From Albidovulum denitrificans (GTDB lineage Bacteria; Pseudomonadota; Alphaproteobacteria; Rhodobacterales; Rhodobacteraceae), in NCBI RefSeq assembly GCF_002973535.1, contig NZ_PVEP01000001.1, forward strand, positions 930,001 to 994,000: 64,000 nt of DNA. The letters run 5' to 3'. Made by a program: the position numbers and the translations under genes. This document shows, one piece after another, positions 43,288-51,025 of this stretch; within the stretch, counting starts at the first letter, position 1, and every line of letters begins with the position of its first letter. The notes under the pieces were generated by a model. That model was not told where the DNA came from, searched no databases, and saw only the letters and a program-made list of their open reading frames with translations.

Positions 43288-43341
43288 TGGCCCGCGCTCC
43301 CGTCACTGTCCCCTCCCCCCGGAATTTACCGCTGCCTTGCG

Positions 43342-43574
43342 GACCCGAGACCCTGGAACGACAACGGCGGATCGGGCTGCTGCCACTGCCCGATCCGCCG
43401 CCCTCGTTCCCATCTCTGGGTCTGTCCGGCTGCGCATGCCACCTGGGGGGATGTCTGCTCGCTTGCGCGCCGGATCTCTTGGTTCGATGAAAGCGGGTGC
43501 CTGTATGAAACCTGACTTGCCTTATGGGTCTTTGCGCCCGTTCGTGCCCGTCCTCATCGGTGAACCCTGTTTGC
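43342..43574 (-). ncRNA. upsM: UpsM-like structured 5' leader / sRNA of the dcw operon
   Basis: In R. sphaeroides the dcw operon has an extended 5' UTR of 268 nt whose first part is released as the sRNA UpsM. Here the distance from a plausible start near 43574 to mraZ is about 287 nt, and a very long hairpin lies at the right place: GACCC-GAGA (43342-43350) pairs with TCTC-T-GGGTC (43414-43423), GGAACGA (43355-43361) with TCGTTCC (43404-43410), and CGGCGGATCGGG (43365-43376) with CCCGATCCGCCG (43389-43400). A clear T-run is missing, so termination may be inefficient. The exact ends are estimates. Confidence 0.65.
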
Positions 43575-43952: not shown

Positions 43953-45026
43953 TCAGGCCATTCCGCCCGCGATCAGGCGCGCGGCGAGGCGGGCATAGGC
44001 CTCGGCCATCGGCCCCTCTCCGGCGGCGACCGGCACGCCGGTGTCGCCCGCCTGCCGGATCTCAAGGCTCAGCGGGACCTCGCCCAGGAAGGGGACGCCC
44101 AGCGCCTCGGCCTCGGCCGCGACGCCGCCATGACCGAACAGATGCGCCTCATGCCCGCAATTCGGGCAGACATAGGTGGACATGTTCTCCACCAGGCCAA
44201 GGATCGGGGTCTTGAGCTTGCCGAACATGTCGATGGCGCGCCGCGCGTCGATCAGCGCCACGTCCTGCGGCGTCGACACGACGATGGCGCCGGTCATATG
44301 GGTGCGCTGACACAGCGTCAGCTGCACATCCCCGGTCCCCGGCGGCAGGTCGACGATCAGCACGTCAAGCTCGCCCCAGAACACCTGTTCAAGCAGTTGT
44401 TGCAGCGCGCCCATCAGCATAGGGCCGCGCCAGACGACCGCCTCGCCCTCTTTCAGCATCAACCCGATCGACATCATCACGACGCCATGCGCCTCAAGCG
44501 GCAGGATACGCTTGCCGTCGGGCGAACCGGGGCGCTTGTTGACGCCCATCATCCGCGGCTGCGAGGGACCGTATATATCGGCGTCCAGCAACCCGACCCG
44601 CCGCCCCTGCCGCGCCAGCGCGACGGCGAGGTTCGAGGACAGGGTGGACTTGCCCACCCCGCCCTTGCCGGAGGCGATGGCGACGATGCGGTCGATGCCG
44701 CTGATCTGCTGGGGGCCGGTCTGCGGCGTCGGGTGGCCGCCGATCTTCAGGCTGGGCGGCTCGGCCGGTTTCGGCGCCGGGCCATGCGCAGTCAGCACGG
44801 CCGAAACGGAGGTCACCCCCGGCACCGCCTGCGCCGCGGCCTCGGCCGCCTTCAGCACCGGCTCCATCTGCCGCGCGACGGCGGGGTCCGGCACCTCGAT
44901 GACGAATCGCACCGCGCCATCGGTGACGGACAGGGCGCGCACCAGATCGGCGGAAACCAGATCCTTGCCATCCGGCAGGGCGATCCGCCCAAGGGCCTCA
45001 ACTATCTTTTCACGCGTCACATCCAT
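43953..45026 (-). CDS. apbC: Mrp/NBP35 (ApbC) iron-sulfur cluster carrier ATPase
   Basis: A 357-residue P-loop ATPase that carries and transfers Fe-S clusters. The N-terminal MIP18/DUF59-like domain (about 1-95) is followed by the deviant Walker A ASGKGGVGKSTLSSNLA near 117-133. DLPPGTGDVQLTL is the Walker B region, and the cluster-binding CPNC pair is in STYVCPNCGHEAHLFGHGG near 278. The ATG at 45026 has a GAAAGG site. It is divergent from the DUF1127 gene. Confidence 0.95.
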   Translation of the reverse strand: MDVTREKIVEALGRIALPDGKDLVSADLVRALSVTDGAVRFVIEVPDPAVARQMEPVLKAAEAAAQAVPGVTSVSAVLTAHGPAPKPAEPPSLKIGGHPTPQTGPQQISGIDRIVAIASGKGGVGKSTLSSNLAVALARQGRRVGLLDADIYGPSQPRMMGVNKRPGSPDGKRILPLEAHGVVMMSIGLMLKEGEAVVWRGPMLMGALQQLLEQVFWGELDVLIVDLPPGTGDVQLTLCQRTHMTGAIVVSTPQDVALIDARRAIDMFGKLKTPILGLVENMSTYVCPNCGHEAHLFGHGGVAAEAEALGVPFLGEVPLSLEIRQAGDTGVPVAAGEGPMAEAYARLAARLIAGGMA

Positions 45027-45148: not shown

Positions 45149-45167
45149 CCATGCAATTGCTGCATGG
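45149..45167. promoter_or_regulatory. Inverted repeat upstream of the DUF1127 gene
   Basis: CCATGCA (45149-45155) pairs perfectly with TGCATGG (45161-45167) across ATTGC, about 105 bases before the DUF1127 start. The whole interval 45027-45271 between two divergent genes should contain both promoters. In R. sphaeroides the homologous operon is driven by the alternative sigma factors RpoHI/RpoHII, but I could not identify a convincing match. Confidence 0.35.
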
Positions 45168-45271
45168 CAGCATTGCTTCGAAGGGCTATTGTGCAATCGC
45201 AGCATAAACCTCATGTTAGCCCCAACGGTGACAGACAGGTCGCCAGCTAGACGAAAAGACGAGACGACGAG

Positions 45272-45487
45272 ATGGCTTTTGCAAACGTAACACGCAGCGG
45301 TGAGTTCGGGTTTTTCCACGGCCTTGGCGCCCTGGTCGAGAAGTTCCGCGACCAGCGCCGCCGCAACCGGGTCTATCGCCAGACCCTCGCCGAGCTGAAA
45401 TCGCTCTCCAACCGCGATCTGGCGGATCTGGGCATCGCCCGGTCGATGATCGGCGCGGTCGCGATGGAAGCCGCCTACGGCAAGTAA
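45272..45487 (+). CDS. ccaF1: DUF1127 protein, CcaF1-like RNA-binding protein
   Basis: The 71 residues end in the DUF1127 motif RRRNRVYRQTLAELKSLSNRDLADLGIARSMI, an arginine-rich helix pair. In R. sphaeroides the homologue CcaF1 (RSP_6037) is a small RNA-binding protein cotranscribed with the CcsR sRNAs and influences their maturation. The same arrangement is seen here: the CcsR-like hairpins begin seven bases past its stop codon. ATG at 45272 follows a GACGAGACGACGAG purine-rich stretch. Length and position support orthology. Confidence 0.88.
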   Translation: MAFANVTRSGEFGFFHGLGALVEKFRDQRRRNRVYRQTLAELKSLSNRDLADLGIARSMIGAVAMEAAYGK

Positions 45488-45493
45488 GGTTTC

Positions 45494-45902
45494 TCCGGGG
45501 CCTCCTCCTCCTCCCTGGCCCCGGAAAAAGCGGCACGCCCTCCTCCCGGAAACGGCCGCACAAGACCGGACCTTCGGGTCCACCAGGACACGGGCAACCT
45601 CCCTCCTCCTCCCTGGAGGTCCCGTGCAGAAGAGCGGCGGTCCCCTCCTCCTCCCTGGGACCGCCGCGCCTTCACCCCCCGGCGGTCTGCCGGACGACAT
45701 TCGGGCCTGAACGGCCCAACGTGATACGACCCCGCCCCTCCTCCTCCCTGGGCGGGACCGTAGTGAAGACGGTGGCAGCTCCTCCTCCTCCCTGAGCTGC
45801 CACCGCCCCTTCACATCAAAACGTGAGGTCCCCTCCTCCTCCCTGGGACCAGAGCGTCATGACGGCGGCCCCCTCCTCCTCCCTGGGGCCGCCGTTTTTT
45901 TA
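45494..45902 (+). ncRNA. ccsR: CcsR1-4 / cuckoo sRNA array with eight stem-loops
   Basis: Seven perfect hairpins share the loop CTCCTCCTCCCT but have different stems: loops at 45503-45516, 45603-45614, 45645-45656, 45738-45749, 45781-45794, 45833-45844 and 45873-45884. One degenerate unit (CCCTCCTCCC, 45538-45547, in a weak GCGGC/GCCGC stem) sits in the first pair. Stems include GCGGCGGTCCC/GGGACCGCCGC and CGGTGGCAGCT/AGCTGCCACCG. Eight units form four pairs, matching the four CcsR sRNAs of R. sphaeroides, which carry CCUCCUCCC (anti-Shine-Dalgarno-like) loops and are processed from the ccaF1 transcript under stress. The exact ends of each sRNA are not visible. Confidence 0.9.
45862..45901 (+). 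terminator. Intrinsic terminator ending the CcsR array
   Basis: The last CCUCC-loop hairpin has an 11-base perfect stem (ACGGCGGCCCC at 45862-45872 with 45885-45895) and is directly followed by seven T residues. It serves both as the final CcsR stem-loop and as the operon terminator. Confidence 0.85.
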
Positions 45903-47066: not shown

Positions 47067-49787
47067 TCAGAACGGGATCTCGTCCGCGATGTCGGCGGCG
47101 ACGACATATCCCGCCAGGACATGCTTCGTCCCCGCCTTGTCGAACGCCACCTCCAGCTTGTCGCCCTCAAGCGCCTCGACCGTGCCGTAGCCGAACTTCT
47201 TGTGGAACACCCGGTCGCCCTCGGTGAAGGACGACACCGCGTCGAGGTCGATCACGACATGACGTGCCTCGCGCGGCTGGCTGACGGGGCGGCTTCCGGC
47301 GCGGTCCTGCAACCGCTTCCAGCCGGGTGAGTTGTAGACGTCGGCGCGGGCAGCGCGATCCTCGACCGCCGAGGTGCCGAAGCCCTGACCGGCGGCGCCA
47401 AAGCCGCCGCCGTAAAGGCTCGGAGAGCTAATGTCGTCTATGTGCTCGTCAGGAAGTTCTTCGAGAAAACGCGACTTATATTGCGCCTCCCATCGCCCAT
47501 AGATCCGGCGGTTCGACGCATAGGAGATCGTGCAAAGCTCCTCGGCCCGCGTGATGCCGACATAGGCCAGCCGCCGCTCCTCCTCCAGCCCCTTCAACCC
47601 GCTTTCATCCATGGAGCGTTGGGACGGGAACAGCCCGTCCTCCCATCCCGGCAGGAAGACCACCGGAAACTCCAGCCCCTTGGCGGCGTGAAGCGTCATG
47701 ATGGTGATCTTCTCCTCCGCATCCTCGCTGTCATTGTCCATGATAAGCGAGACATGTTCGAGGAAACCCTGAAGATTATCGAAGGATTCCAGCGCCTTCA
47801 CGAGTTCTTTCAGGTTCTCCAGCCGCCCCGGCGCCTCGGGCGTCTTGTCGTTCTGCCACATCTCGGTGTAGCCGGAGTCTTCAAGGATCGTCTCGGCGAG
47901 GCGGACGTGGTCCCCGTCTAGGAACGATAGCTCCCTTTCAACCAGCCATCGTTTGGATTGATACTGTTCAAGTTCAATAGCAATTGGCTCCGCCAGCGCT
48001 CGATCGGCGCCTTCAGGTTCGGGAAATTCATCGAGTTCAGCCGCCAACTGCGCGATCGCTTCATCAAAGACGCCAATCGCTTCTTTGCGCTTCTTAATCT
48101 CCAATTCATTCCCGACATTTCGAATAAACCAGTGCCAGCGGTCCACCGCCTCGACAAAGACGCGCAACTGCGCCCCGCCCTTGCCGCCGATCTGACCCGA
48201 CGCTACGCAGTAGCGCGCGCCTTCCAACAGGTTGACGCCATCCTCCCGCGCCTGACGCTGAATCACCTGCTGTGCCTTGTCGCCCAGCCCGCGCTTGGGG
48301 GTGTTGACCACCCGCTCAAACGCCAGATCGTCCTCGGGCGACACGGCGAGGCGGAAATAGGCCATCGCGTCGCGGATCTCCAACCGCTCATAGAATCGCG
48401 GGCCGCCGATGACGCGGTAGGGCAGGCCGATGGTCAGGAAACGGTCCTCGAAGGCGCGCATCTGGTGGCTGGCGCGGACGAGGATGGCCATTTCGTCGAG
48501 TCCAAAAGTCTGCGGGATCGGGAGATTGGAACGTCCTTCGGGCGTCAAGCTCTCCGCCCGCATGAGATTTACCTGATGAATATCCCCATCGCGATTCTTC
48601 GAGACCGTGCCGCCTTTGGCCAAGCGATCTGCTTCCTGTCCGGGCGATACAGACCGAGCGTTCTGCCTGCGTTTGGCGATAGCCGACACGCCGCTGTAGA
48701 GCGCTTCAATCTCCTCCCCGATCCAGCGGGCCTCTTCCTCGCCGTCCCAATGGCCGATCAGGCGAATCTTCTCTCCCCCCTTTTCTTCGGTCCAGAGATC
48801 CTTGCCCAAACGCTCCGCGTTACCCGAAATCAGCCGCGAGGCGGCGGCGAGGATGTGTTCGGTGGAACGATAGTTCTGTTCCAGCCGGATCACCTTGGCG
48901 CCGGGGAAGTCCTTTTCGAACCGCAGGATGTTGCCGACCTCGGCGCCGCGCCAGCCATAGATCGACTGGTCGTCGTCGCCCACGCAGCAGATGTTCTTGT
49001 GCCTGCCCGCCAGAAGCCGCAGCCAGAGATACTGGGCGATGTTCGTATCCTGATATTCGTCCACCAGAATATAGCGGAACCAGCGCTGATATTGTTCCAG
49101 AACGTCAGGCCGGGTCTGGAAGATGGTCACGACGTGAAGCAGGAGATCGCCGAAATCGCAGGCGTTCAGCGCCAGAAGACGTTGTTGATAGGCCGCGTAA
49201 AGTTCGGTTCCCATGTTGTTGAAATGGCTGGCTTCGGCGGCGGGGACCTGCTCCGGCCCCCAGGCGCGGTTCTTCCAACTGTCGATCAACCCGGCCAGTT
49301 GCCGCGCGGGCCAGCGTTTTTCGTCGATATTGGCCGCGACGATCAACTGCTTCATCAGCCGGATCTGGTCATCGGTATCGAGAATGGTGAAGTTGGATTT
49401 CAGCCCAACCAACTCCGCATGGCGGCGCAGGATTTTCACGCAGAGCGAATGGAAGGTCCCCATCCAGGGCAGGCCTTCCACCGGGCCGCCCATCAGCCGC
49501 CCGACCCTTTCCTTCATCTCGCGCGCGGCCTTGTTGGTGAAGGTGACGGCGAGGATCTCATTCGTCCGCGCCCTGCCCTGCCCCAGAAGATGCGCGATCC
49601 GCGCCGTCAGCGCGCGGGTCTTGCCGGTCCCGGCCCCCGCCAGCATCAGGACCGGGCCGTCCAGCGCATCCACCGCCTCGCGCTGCGCGGGGTTCAGCCC
49701 GTCAAGATAGGGCGCAGGCCGCGCGGCCATGGCGCGGGCGGAAAGGGATGCGCCTTCAAAGGCGTCGGCATCGTCAAAGCTGCTCAT
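47067..49787 (-). CDS. uvrD: ATP-dependent DNA helicase UvrD/PcrA, with two insertions
   Basis: A 906-residue SF1A helicase for nucleotide-excision and mismatch repair. Walker A GAGTGKT is at 51-57, DEYQDTN near 243, GDDDQSIYGWRGA near 270, QNYRSTEHIL near 303, LHAAKGLEFPVVFLPGWEDG near 699 and the C-terminal Tudor-like FHKKFGYGTVEALEGDKLEV. Compared with typical PcrA/UvrD, about 65 residues (365-429) lie between EEIEAL and LDEMAILVRAS, and about 70 residues (555-628) lie between RWHWF and RLAETILEDSGYTEMW. Both coding stretches look less GC-rich than the rest. ATG at 49787 is chosen over 49943. Confidence 0.93.
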   Translation of the reverse strand: MSSFDDADAFEGASLSARAMAARPAPYLDGLNPAQREAVDALDGPVLMLAGAGTGKTRALTARIAHLLGQGRARTNEILAVTFTNKAAREMKERVGRLMGGPVEGLPWMGTFHSLCVKILRRHAELVGLKSNFTILDTDDQIRLMKQLIVAANIDEKRWPARQLAGLIDSWKNRAWGPEQVPAAEASHFNNMGTELYAAYQQRLLALNACDFGDLLLHVVTIFQTRPDVLEQYQRWFRYILVDEYQDTNIAQYLWLRLLAGRHKNICCVGDDDQSIYGWRGAEVGNILRFEKDFPGAKVIRLEQNYRSTEHILAAASRLISGNAERLGKDLWTEEKGGEKIRLIGHWDGEEEARWIGEEIEALYSGVSAIAKRRQNARSVSPGQEADRLAKGGTVSKNRDGDIHQVNLMRAESLTPEGRSNLPIPQTFGLDEMAILVRASHQMRAFEDRFLTIGLPYRVIGGPRFYERLEIRDAMAYFRLAVSPEDDLAFERVVNTPKRGLGDKAQQVIQRQAREDGVNLLEGARYCVASGQIGGKGGAQLRVFVEAVDRWHWFIRNVGNELEIKKRKEAIGVFDEAIAQLAAELDEFPEPEGADRALAEPIAIELEQYQSKRWLVERELSFLDGDHVRLAETILEDSGYTEMWQNDKTPEAPGRLENLKELVKALESFDNLQGFLEHVSLIMDNDSEDAEEKITIMTLHAAKGLEFPVVFLPGWEDGLFPSQRSMDESGLKGLEEERRLAYVGITRAEELCTISYASNRRIYGRWEAQYKSRFLEELPDEHIDDISSPSLYGGGFGAAGQGFGTSAVEDRAARADVYNSPGWKRLQDRAGSRPVSQPREARHVVIDLDAVSSFTEGDRVFHKKFGYGTVEALEGDKLEVAFDKAGTKHVLAGYVVAADIADEIPF

Positions 49788-49891
49788 GCGCGACAATCTA
49801 GACGCATCGTTTCGCGAATAAAAGACAAGTTCACACTCTGTTCCTTCCGTTACGCTGGACTTTCCCGCGCAGGCCAAGAAGAAATGCCGCC

Positions 49892-51025
49892 ATGGACCTG
49901 CATTCGCGCTACCCCGCCCTCTCCGACCTGAAAGCCCGCGCAAGGGCGCGGATGCCGTGGTTCGTCTGGGAATACCTCGAAAGCGCCACGGGAACCGAGG
50001 CGACGCAGGGCCGGAACCGCGCGAAGCTGGATGAGGTTCTGCTCAGCCCCTCGGTCCTGCATGGCGAATTCACCCCGGACCTGAGCGTGCAGATGTTCGG
50101 CCAGACCTATCCCCTGCCCTTCGGCATCTCGCCCGTCGGCATGTCGGGCATCTTCTGGCCCGATGCGGAACGGATGCTGGCGGCGGCGGCCGCGGCGGCG
50201 GGCATTCCCTATGGCCTTTCCACCGTCGCCGCCCAGACGCCCGAGGCGGTGGCACCCCATCTGGGCGCGCATGGCTGGTTCCAGATGTACCCCCCGCGCG
50301 ATCCCGGCATCCGCACCGACATGCTGAAACGCGCGAAGGCGGCGGGGTTTTCCGCGCTGATCCTGACCGTTGACGTGCCGGTCGCCAGCCGCCGGGAACG
50401 CCAGACCCGGTCGGGCCTGACCCAGCCGCCGCGCCTGACGCCGCGCCTTCTGGCGCAGGTGATGCAGCGCCCGGCCTGGGCGCTTGGCACCCTGAAACAC
50501 GGGATGCCCCGGATGCGGCTGATGGACAGCTACGCCGACACGTCGGTGAAGACGTCCTCCACCGCGCATGTGGGCTATCTGCTGCGCACCTCGCCCGACT
50601 GGGACTATGTCAAATGGTTGCGCGACGCCTGGGACGGCCCGTTTATCGTCAAGGGCGTGCTGCGCGCCGACGATGCCGCGCGCTTGCAGGACGAAGGCGT
50701 GGACGCGATCTGGGTCTCGAACCATGCCGGGCGGCAGTTCGACGCCGCCCCCGCCTCGATCGAGGCTTTGCCCGAGGTGCGCGCCGCCACGACCCTGCCG
50801 GTGATCTTCGACAGCGGGATCGAGGGCGGGCTGGACATGCTGCGCGCCGTGGCACTCGGCGCGGATTTCGTGATGATGGGGCGGGCCTGGCACTATGCAC
50901 TGGCCGCGTTGGGCGAAGCTGGTCCCGCGCATCTGGTCGATATGCTGAGGCTCGACCTGATTTCCAACATGGGCCAGATGGGGACCCGCAGCCTGACCGA
51001 TGTCCGCGCCCGCCTGATCGGCTGA
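49892..51025 (+). CDS. lldD: FMN-dependent alpha-hydroxy-acid dehydrogenase, L-lactate type
   Basis: The 377 residues form a TIM-barrel FMN enzyme oxidising an L-2-hydroxy acid. Landmarks: YLESATGTEATQGRNRAKLDEVLL near 28-51, PFGISPVGMSGIFWPDAE near 75, FQMYPPRDPG, LTVDVPVASRRERQTR (near 166) and the catalytic SNHAGRQFDAAPAS with the essential histidine near 282, then DSGIEGGLDMLRAVALGADFVMMGRA. L-lactate is most likely, though glycolate or mandelate cannot be excluded. It is divergent from uvrD. Confidence 0.9.
   Translation: MDLHSRYPALSDLKARARARMPWFVWEYLESATGTEATQGRNRAKLDEVLLSPSVLHGEFTPDLSVQMFGQTYPLPFGISPVGMSGIFWPDAERMLAAAAAAAGIPYGLSTVAAQTPEAVAPHLGAHGWFQMYPPRDPGIRTDMLKRAKAAGFSALILTVDVPVASRRERQTRSGLTQPPRLTPRLLAQVMQRPAWALGTLKHGMPRMRLMDSYADTSVKTSSTAHVGYLLRTSPDWDYVKWLRDAWDGPFIVKGVLRADDAARLQDEGVDAIWVSNHAGRQFDAAPASIEALPEVRAATTLPVIFDSGIEGGLDMLRAVALGADFVMMGRAWHYALAALGEAGPAHLVDMLRLDLISNMGQMGTRSLTDVRARLIG

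Follow-up and report, generated by a model that had tools for sequence, protein, structure and literature searches.

The DNA analysed here, a stretch of 64,000 nucleotides from Albidovulum denitrificans (the window), carries at positions 45272 to 45901 what is very probably a CcaF1-CcsR1-4, or cuckoo RNA, operon of the Defluviimonas/Albidovulum group. Upstream of it lies a conserved double box made up of two copies of the motif recognized by the LysR-type regulator LsrB, and the genome encodes an LsrB ortholog. Taken as a whole, a CcaF1-CcsR-type operon with proposed activation by LsrB through the two boxes is the best explanation of these observations, and we regard it as probable.

The DUF1127 gene and its hairpin array

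From the ORF list and a profile search, the locus begins with a 71 amino acid reading frame which matches PF06568 (44.9 bits, cut-off 23.3). Eight hairpins arranged in four pairs (45494-45895) follow from the stop codon on, together with a U7 tail, all of them on the plus strand:

45272-45487, plus strand: ccaF1-like DUF1127 gene, 71 aa (ORF list and profile match)
45494-45525, plus strand: hairpin 1, first of a CcsR1-like pair, with a 14-nt loop holding CUCCUCCUCCCU (Rfam, fold, alignment)
45530-45559, plus strand: hairpin 2, with a weakened stem and a loop that keeps CCUCCUCCC (fold, alignment)
45568-45581, plus strand: motif-less spacer hairpin with a UUCG loop, between pairs 1 and 2 (fold, alignment; helix 4, gapped in three of seven rows)
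45589-45626, plus strand: hairpin 3 (Rfam, fold, alignment)
45634-45667, plus strand: hairpin 4 (Rfam, fold, alignment)
45679-45717, plus strand: two motif-less spacer hairpins (45679-45693 and 45703-45717), between pairs 2 and 3 (fold, alignment; helices 7 and 8)
45725-45762, plus strand: hairpin 5 (Rfam, fold, alignment)
45770-45805, plus strand: hairpin 6 (Rfam, fold, alignment)
45827-45850, plus strand: hairpin 7 (Rfam, fold, alignment)
45862-45901, plus strand: hairpin 8 with the U7 tail, also the predicted Rho-independent terminator (sequence, Rfam, fold, alignment)

The reading frame, its PF06568 match, the loop count and the fold of the array bear out the preliminary description, in which the region was read as a DUF1127 gene followed by eight stem-loops. 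As in cuckoo (CIN1) loci, a short DUF1127 gene lies directly 5' of the hairpins, and adjacent hairpins have CCUCCUCCC loops on variable stems, the CCUCCUCCC of hairpin 2 being partly paired in the predicted fold. The window contains seven exact copies of CTCCTCCTCCC, all on the plus strand and between 45505 and 45883. When one mismatch is allowed the number of matches rises to 15 against 2.1 expected, which 0/100 shuffles reach. CUCCUCCUCCCU is found in the loops of seven hairpins (1 and 3-8), and these loops are unpaired when each hairpin is folded singly. For the 421-nt array the folding energy is -208.7 kcal/mol (z = -7.5), and none of 100 shuffles is as low. Among the single folds, at most one of 200 shuffles does as well as each of hairpins 1, 4, 5, 6 and 8; hairpins 3 and 7 show no excess, 28 and 74 of 200 shuffles folding as well. 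The initial claim of seven perfect hairpins sharing a 12-base loop needs correcting: the loop of hairpin 1 measures 14 nt and includes the 12-mer, and hairpins 3 and 5 contain a bulge or internal loop, which means that not every one of the seven is perfect. The motif-less spacer hairpins, possibly processing signals, gave no clear excess over shuffles when folded alone (16 and 40 of 200); in the alignment they are 80-91% paired, with one both-sided change each.

Hairpin 2 keeps CCCUCCUCCC; its stem has 5 + 2 bp and a bulged A, and it folds at -14.3 kcal/mol (2/200 shuffles as low) with the motif partly paired in the predicted fold. The hairpin detector overlooks it, finding seven of the eight hairpins in the window. 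Its inner stem is broken in the A. denitrificans genome; in the two nearest relatives hairpin 2 has an intact 9-bp stem and a CTTCCTCCCGGA loop. The outer five pairs, GCGGC/GCCGC (helix 3), do not vary among the seven aligned genomes and the core CCUCCUCCC has been retained, so that this second stem-loop, originally called decayed, is a weakened yet recognisable unit. We saw no evidence that it has become specialised or lost its function.

At the 3' end, hairpin 8 and the U7 tail (45895-45901) constitute, by sequence and fold, the Rho-independent terminator typical of CcaF1-CcsR1-4 loci and should act as such, in agreement with the earlier view that the array ends in a terminator. The terminator scan does not list hairpin 8 because its loop limit is 8 and the loop of hairpin 8 is 12.

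The locus is flanked by mrp and a UvrD-like helicase gene (window 43953-45026 and 47067-49943). Mrp is present in 56/85 and UvrD in 57/85 fetched loci, counts in which 13 genus contigs figure twice and flank lengths are unequal. The mraZ leader (window 43320-43560, minus strand) contains a very strong hairpin (z = -5.4 for 241 nt; core about 43357-43408) at the position where the terminator of the R. sphaeroides UpsM sRNA would be expected. In excerpts of the R. sphaeroides literature UpsM is RSs0682 and a two-hairpin anti-Shine-Dalgarno (aSD) sRNA is RS0680a, which is presumably CcsR1.

Family assignment and covariation of the stems

At gathering thresholds, the Rfam scan of the window returned tRNA only. 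Below the gathering score of 65.3 bits, the CcsR1 model (RF02791) matches all four pairs, with E-values from 5.8e-11 to 9.4e-4:

45489-45564, plus strand: CcsR1 match, pair 1, 27.3 bits
45587-45672, plus strand: CcsR1 match, pair 2, 51.7 bits
45723-45811, plus strand: CcsR1 match, pair 3, 37.7 bits
45818-45900, plus strand: CcsR1 match, pair 4, 44.5 bits

Such scores are usual for the family, since only 7/120 family genomes attain the gathering score; at E <= 0.001 RF02791 was found in 99/120 of them, and also in 1/14 control genomes (Thermus composti). Because the gathering score is missed, we filed the locus as a cuckoo/CcsR-like RNA and not as the Rfam CcsR1 entry. The covariance-model check that had been suggested for the CcsR family thus gave significant E-values for every pair and, together with the covarying stems, it substantiates the proposed CcaF1-CcsR1-4 (cuckoo RNA) identity. 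A supposed departure from the described four pairs was mistaken, four pairs being the described arrangement.

Covariation of the stems in related genomes, on which the preliminary description had made its reading depend, is present in the seven aligned arrays. Both sides have changed in 23/92 pairs against 12.3 +/- 2.4 in shuffled alignments (0/500 as high), and 88.5% of the paired cells can pair, falling to 34.8-49.9% once the partners are slid; these figures are somewhat inflated, as the rows are related and the structure was derived from the first row. A different measure, the number of further pair types, is less telling, 40/500 shuffles reaching the observed value. In hairpins 4, 7 and 8 the helices have both-sided changes and are nevertheless 100% paired; the two helices of hairpin 1 (helices 1 and 2) align poorly and score low (71% and 46%). 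Conservation follows the order loops, stems, linkers, with identities of 0.99, 0.87 and 0.71 among A. denitrificans and its two nearest relatives, and of 0.85, 0.77 and 0.64 among all seven genomes (hairpin 2 excluded in each case), which confirms the impression that the loops are fixed while the stems vary.

The DUF1127 gene was detected in 20/22 genus genomes, the two without it being 77% and 89% complete. From a reading of the listings, the 19 main genus loci uncut by a contig end have 5 to 8 motif-bearing hairpins. The detector counted 0 to 11 hairpins in the 51 named loci, with 0 in L078 and L086. A second DUF1127 gene, on another contig (L029; G000:C8:76929-77087), precedes two hairpins, whose loops read CCCUCCC and CCUCCUCCC, and, as judged from the sequence, a terminator-like hairpin. 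Genomes G010 and G014 contain similar loci (L030, L031), in which the detector finds two hairpins and one, respectively.

The promoter double box and the LsrB ortholog

Alignment of 22 upstream regions revealed two strongly conserved blocks, each an RTGC-N7-GCAT dyad. In A. denitrificans both blocks contain TGCA-N6-GCAT exactly, at a distance of 40 bp from each other, upstream of the ccaF1-like gene:

45151-45165, plus strand: box A, an ATGC-N7-GCAT dyad with TGCA-N6-GCAT (45152-45165), at about -73 to -60; proposed primary LsrB site (conservation; motif per PMC10746234)
45191-45205, plus strand: box B, a GTGC-N7-GCAT dyad with TGCA-N6-GCAT (45192-45205), over the -35 element; proposed second LsrB site (conservation)
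45189-45217, plus strand: putative promoter, TTGTGC (45189-45194) and CATGTT (45212-45217) (conservation)

The putative promoter elements are a conserved TTG and CAT-N-TT, with no sigma-70 match, and transcription would start at about 45223-45225. RpoH promoters are described in an excerpt of PMC3441632 as having TTG at -36 to -34. In Sinorhizobium, LsrB is a LysR-type activator of NfeR1, a cuckoo-type sRNA with aSD loops, and its site at nfeR1, TGCA-N6-GCAT at -72 to -60, was tested by EMSA and reporter fusions, according to the accessible parts of PMC10746234. This feature of LsrB target promoters is present here at 45152-45165; since the start site is a predicted one, so is the agreement in position with nfeR1.

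The strict double box gave 22 matches in 19/22 genus genomes and 0 in the reversed-pattern control. A comparison of positions showed that all 22 precede DUF1127-cuckoo loci (19 main, 3 paralog), and no further strict copy was seen in the genus outside such loci. Paralog loci marked by the double box, among them L029, occur in 3/22 genus genomes. Among the three genomes without the strict pattern, two have no detected DUF1127 gene and G019 has a looser version, both blocks being visible in L042. Block B alone, searched in four genomes, had six matches at DUF1127 loci and a seventh 5' of a transporter-like gene in G008. Of 57 main loci from several genera, 53 have ATGC-N7-GCAT, 54 have block B and 51 have the double pattern. 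This set leaves out 13 loci duplicating genus contigs, the 3 paralog loci, L018 and L032; L018 shares its contig with L042, itself among the 13 duplicates, and that contig enters neither count. The upstream search spans 300 bases, and counts of TGCA-N6-GCAT may stem from either box.

In the 120 family genomes the strict pattern was matched 105 times, in 82 genomes; 74 of these matches, spread over 72 genomes, are promoter-like. The reversed pattern has two matches. The other 31 matches to the strict pattern are unlike the ccaF1 promoter, eight of them being one common, coding-looking sequence. Of the 99 family genomes that match CcsR1, 71 have a promoter-like double box and 28 lack the strict double box; among the 21 without a match (20 named genomes plus G138, taken to be the unlisted one) a promoter-like double box is present in 1. 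Fisher's p for this association is 9e-9, a value that does not come from independent observations because the genomes are related.

In Agrobacterium and Brucella, VtlR/LsrB directly activates AbcR1 and small-protein genes through the box GCAT-N3-TG-N3-T, as given in the sections of PMC7486931 available to us. This published form occurs in 3/57 upstream regions and GCAT-N3-[AG]G-N3-T in 52/57. Three DUF1127 proteins of Brucella abortus are tied to fucose use (PMC12501420), as is a homolog of a VtlR-activated small protein (PMC7486931, in part); the two groups presumably overlap.

The LsrB ortholog of the genome is P0001 (L230:1459-2361), the sole homolog at E <= 1e-60. It matches PDB 9HH1, the A. 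tumefaciens LsrB structure (PMC11975290, in part), at E = 7.6e-73, with 45/60 (75%) identity over the first 60 residues and 41% overall. P0001, 9HH1 and the class homologs form a clade with 100/99 support, and 21 other LysR-type proteins of the genome, from 21 of the 29 other LysR loci fetched, fall outside it. A search for an NCBIfam name for LsrB gave, among the 25 of 55 families listed, only LysR models below their cut-offs. At E <= 1e-60 homologs exist in 77/142 class genomes and 116/120 family genomes; presence of LsrB therefore proves little, it being nearly universal in the family. The available text of PMC7486931 places LsrB in many Alphaproteobacteria and that of a 2025 paper calls it unique to Rhizobiales (PMC11975290), a statement which the Rhodobacterales orthologs contradict. 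A position of trxB directly beside lsrB has been described in excerpts on Rhizobiales synteny, and trxB adjoins 25/28 fetched class homologs; no TrxB motif was found within the flanks of P0001 in A. denitrificans or in L251. The P0001 gene is divergent to an indolepyruvate oxidoreductase-like gene, as read from the translation, and its 330-nt upstream region contains no LsrB-type box.

P0001 differs from Agrobacterium LsrB in that all four redox cysteines of the A. tumefaciens protein are absent, which makes a thiol switch of the Agrobacterium kind unlikely. Neither of the redox residues C144 and C273 of A. tumefaciens LsrB was seen in 8 family and 28 class proteins, with gaps at these positions in some rows. 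From the motif and the ortholog, it seems fairly likely that LsrB, through putative binding to the double box, activates the ccaF1-CcsR operon. Our literature searches returned no report linking LsrB to CcsR, and the main text of two R. sphaeroides papers is without the word LysR, the operon being described as driven by RpoHI/RpoHII. The double box bears upon how the CcaF1-CcsR operon is controlled besides the heat-shock sigma factors.

Proposed mechanism, alternatives and related systems

We propose that LsrB (VtlR) binds both boxes, the first about 65 bp 5' of the transcription start and the second overlapping the -35 element. LsrB, perhaps with a heat-shock-type RNA polymerase at a promoter possibly of the RpoH type, would then generate a single transcript for the DUF1127 RNA-binding protein and for four two-hairpin small RNAs. 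Maturation of the sRNAs is tuned by CcaF1 and RNase E in R. sphaeroides, and may be so in A. denitrificans. The pyrimidine loops would act as anti-Shine-Dalgarno sequences, pairing with GGGAGGAGG-like ribosome-binding sites of target mRNAs and leading to a translation block and mRNA decay; the loops would be fixed by target pairing, and the stems would need only to remain paired. Three matches to GGGAGGAGG-N3..11-ATG were found in the genome, and none to the reversed control pattern. From the translations, these sites lie 5' of a membrane protein, 5' of a sugar-binding protein and inside a glmS-like gene. The perfect 12-nt target GGGAGGAGGAGG does not occur in the genome.

Instead of silencing targets, the hairpins might act in cis or as sponges, binding CcaF1 or protecting the 3' end of the mRNA, with the aSD loop as a protein site. 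CcaF1 does bind RNA and affects the maturation of its own precursor (PMC10253847), up to 11 motif-bearing hairpins per locus would suit titration, and the lack of a perfect 12-nt target fits as well. However, the same loop motif in NfeR1 silences ntrB by base pairing, as seen with a variant mutated in all three motifs in the available portion of PMC10746234, CcsR1-4 were reported to target flhR mRNA in R. sphaeroides, and a few GGGAGGAGG leaders do exist in the genome; a cis or sponge function is quite unlikely on this evidence. Chance low-complexity CTC repeats would account for a motif that is a trinucleotide repeat and for two hairpins (3 and 7) that alone fold no better than many shuffles, but the motif count, the fold energy of the array and the covariation all exceed shuffles and the array is conserved across the family. 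The probability of chance repeats is negligible, the covariation test having ruled them out.

Regarding the regulator, it is unlikely that the double box is bound by another LysR-type protein, for example OxyR or an uncharacterised one. T-N11-A dyads are called generic for LysR-type regulators in an excerpt of PMC10746234, 35 LysR substrate-domain matches occur in the genome, no box precedes the gene of the LsrB ortholog, and the redox cysteines of the latter are not conserved. Against these points, the motif equals that of LsrB at nfeR1 in about the same position, LsrB has already been shown to act on such an sRNA (PMC10746234, in part), and the first 60 residues of the ortholog are 75% identical to those of 9HH1. 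The upstream sequence TGCTGCATGGCAGCA also drew attention to PhaR, the polyhydroxybutyrate repressor, which by binding TGCTGC-ATG-GCAGCA (45158-45172) would couple the operon to carbon storage. This site equals the R. sphaeroides PhaR consensus CTGCNNNGCAG (PMC12542648, excerpt) and the genome has just three perfect TGCTGCNNNGCAGCA sites, this one included and another at a phaP-like gene; 50 such sites occur genus-wide against 4 in the reversed control, and phaR is present in 22/22 genus genomes. At phaP-, phaC/phaZ-, ParA- and edd-like genes the spacer is of the purine-N-pyrimidine (R-N-Y) type; at ccaF1 it is almost always ATG or ATA. The overlapping LysR dyad explains both this ATR spacer and the paralog loci, which are without TGCTGC. 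On account of this difference in spacers, and of the LysR dyad as an explanation for ATR, control by PhaR is very unlikely. Likely PhaR operators, TGCTGC-RNY-GCAGCA, were seen in the genus 5' of phaP-, phaZ-, edd- and ParA-like genes (L178-L197, L124-L145; named by reading the translations).

With LsrB as the preferred regulator, the promoter finding links the Rhodobacterales CcsR RNAs with the rhizobial NfeR1 and AbcR RNAs via one conserved protein. We give about even weight to the broader view that LsrB/VtlR is an ancient, widespread alphaproteobacterial activator of a module of DUF1127 and cuckoo RNA, which in Rhodobacterales takes the form of a fused operon under a double LsrB box. If this is true, LsrB works there without the redox cysteines and the thiol switch, and must therefore sense another signal. 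As an operon, the locus adds one more case to a stress-RNA system already described; the possible novelty lies in the double box, in how specific it is and in the occurrence of LsrB across the Rhodobacterales family.

The locus is most readily compared with ccaF1-CcsR1-4 of R. sphaeroides (Cereibacter; CIN1; RF02791), with which it shares a 71-aa DUF1127 gene, four two-hairpin sRNAs, CCUCCUCCC-type loops and a terminal terminator. It differs in scoring under the Rfam gathering cut-off and in the weakened hairpin 2, and its loop word, CUCCUCCUCCCU, is longer than the CCUCCUCCC of the R. sphaeroides locus as compared by description. NfeR1 of Sinorhizobium (alpha-r14; Rfam RF02344, ar14, which matches our locus at 50.6 bits, below the cut-off of 58.8) likewise has CCUCCUCCC aSD loops, variable stems and an LsrB-type TGCA-N6-GCAT in its promoter, but it has three hairpins and an RpoD promoter, and in the accessible parts of PMC10746234 a single LsrB motif is given and a DUF1127 gene is not named. 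The VtlR/LsrB regulon of Agrobacterium and Brucella, as far as the excerpted accounts go, resembles the proposed system in that a LysR-type regulator directly activates small-protein genes and aSD sRNAs; there the genes and the sRNAs are separate, whereas in A. denitrificans, with no second-promoter gap seen, they form one array.
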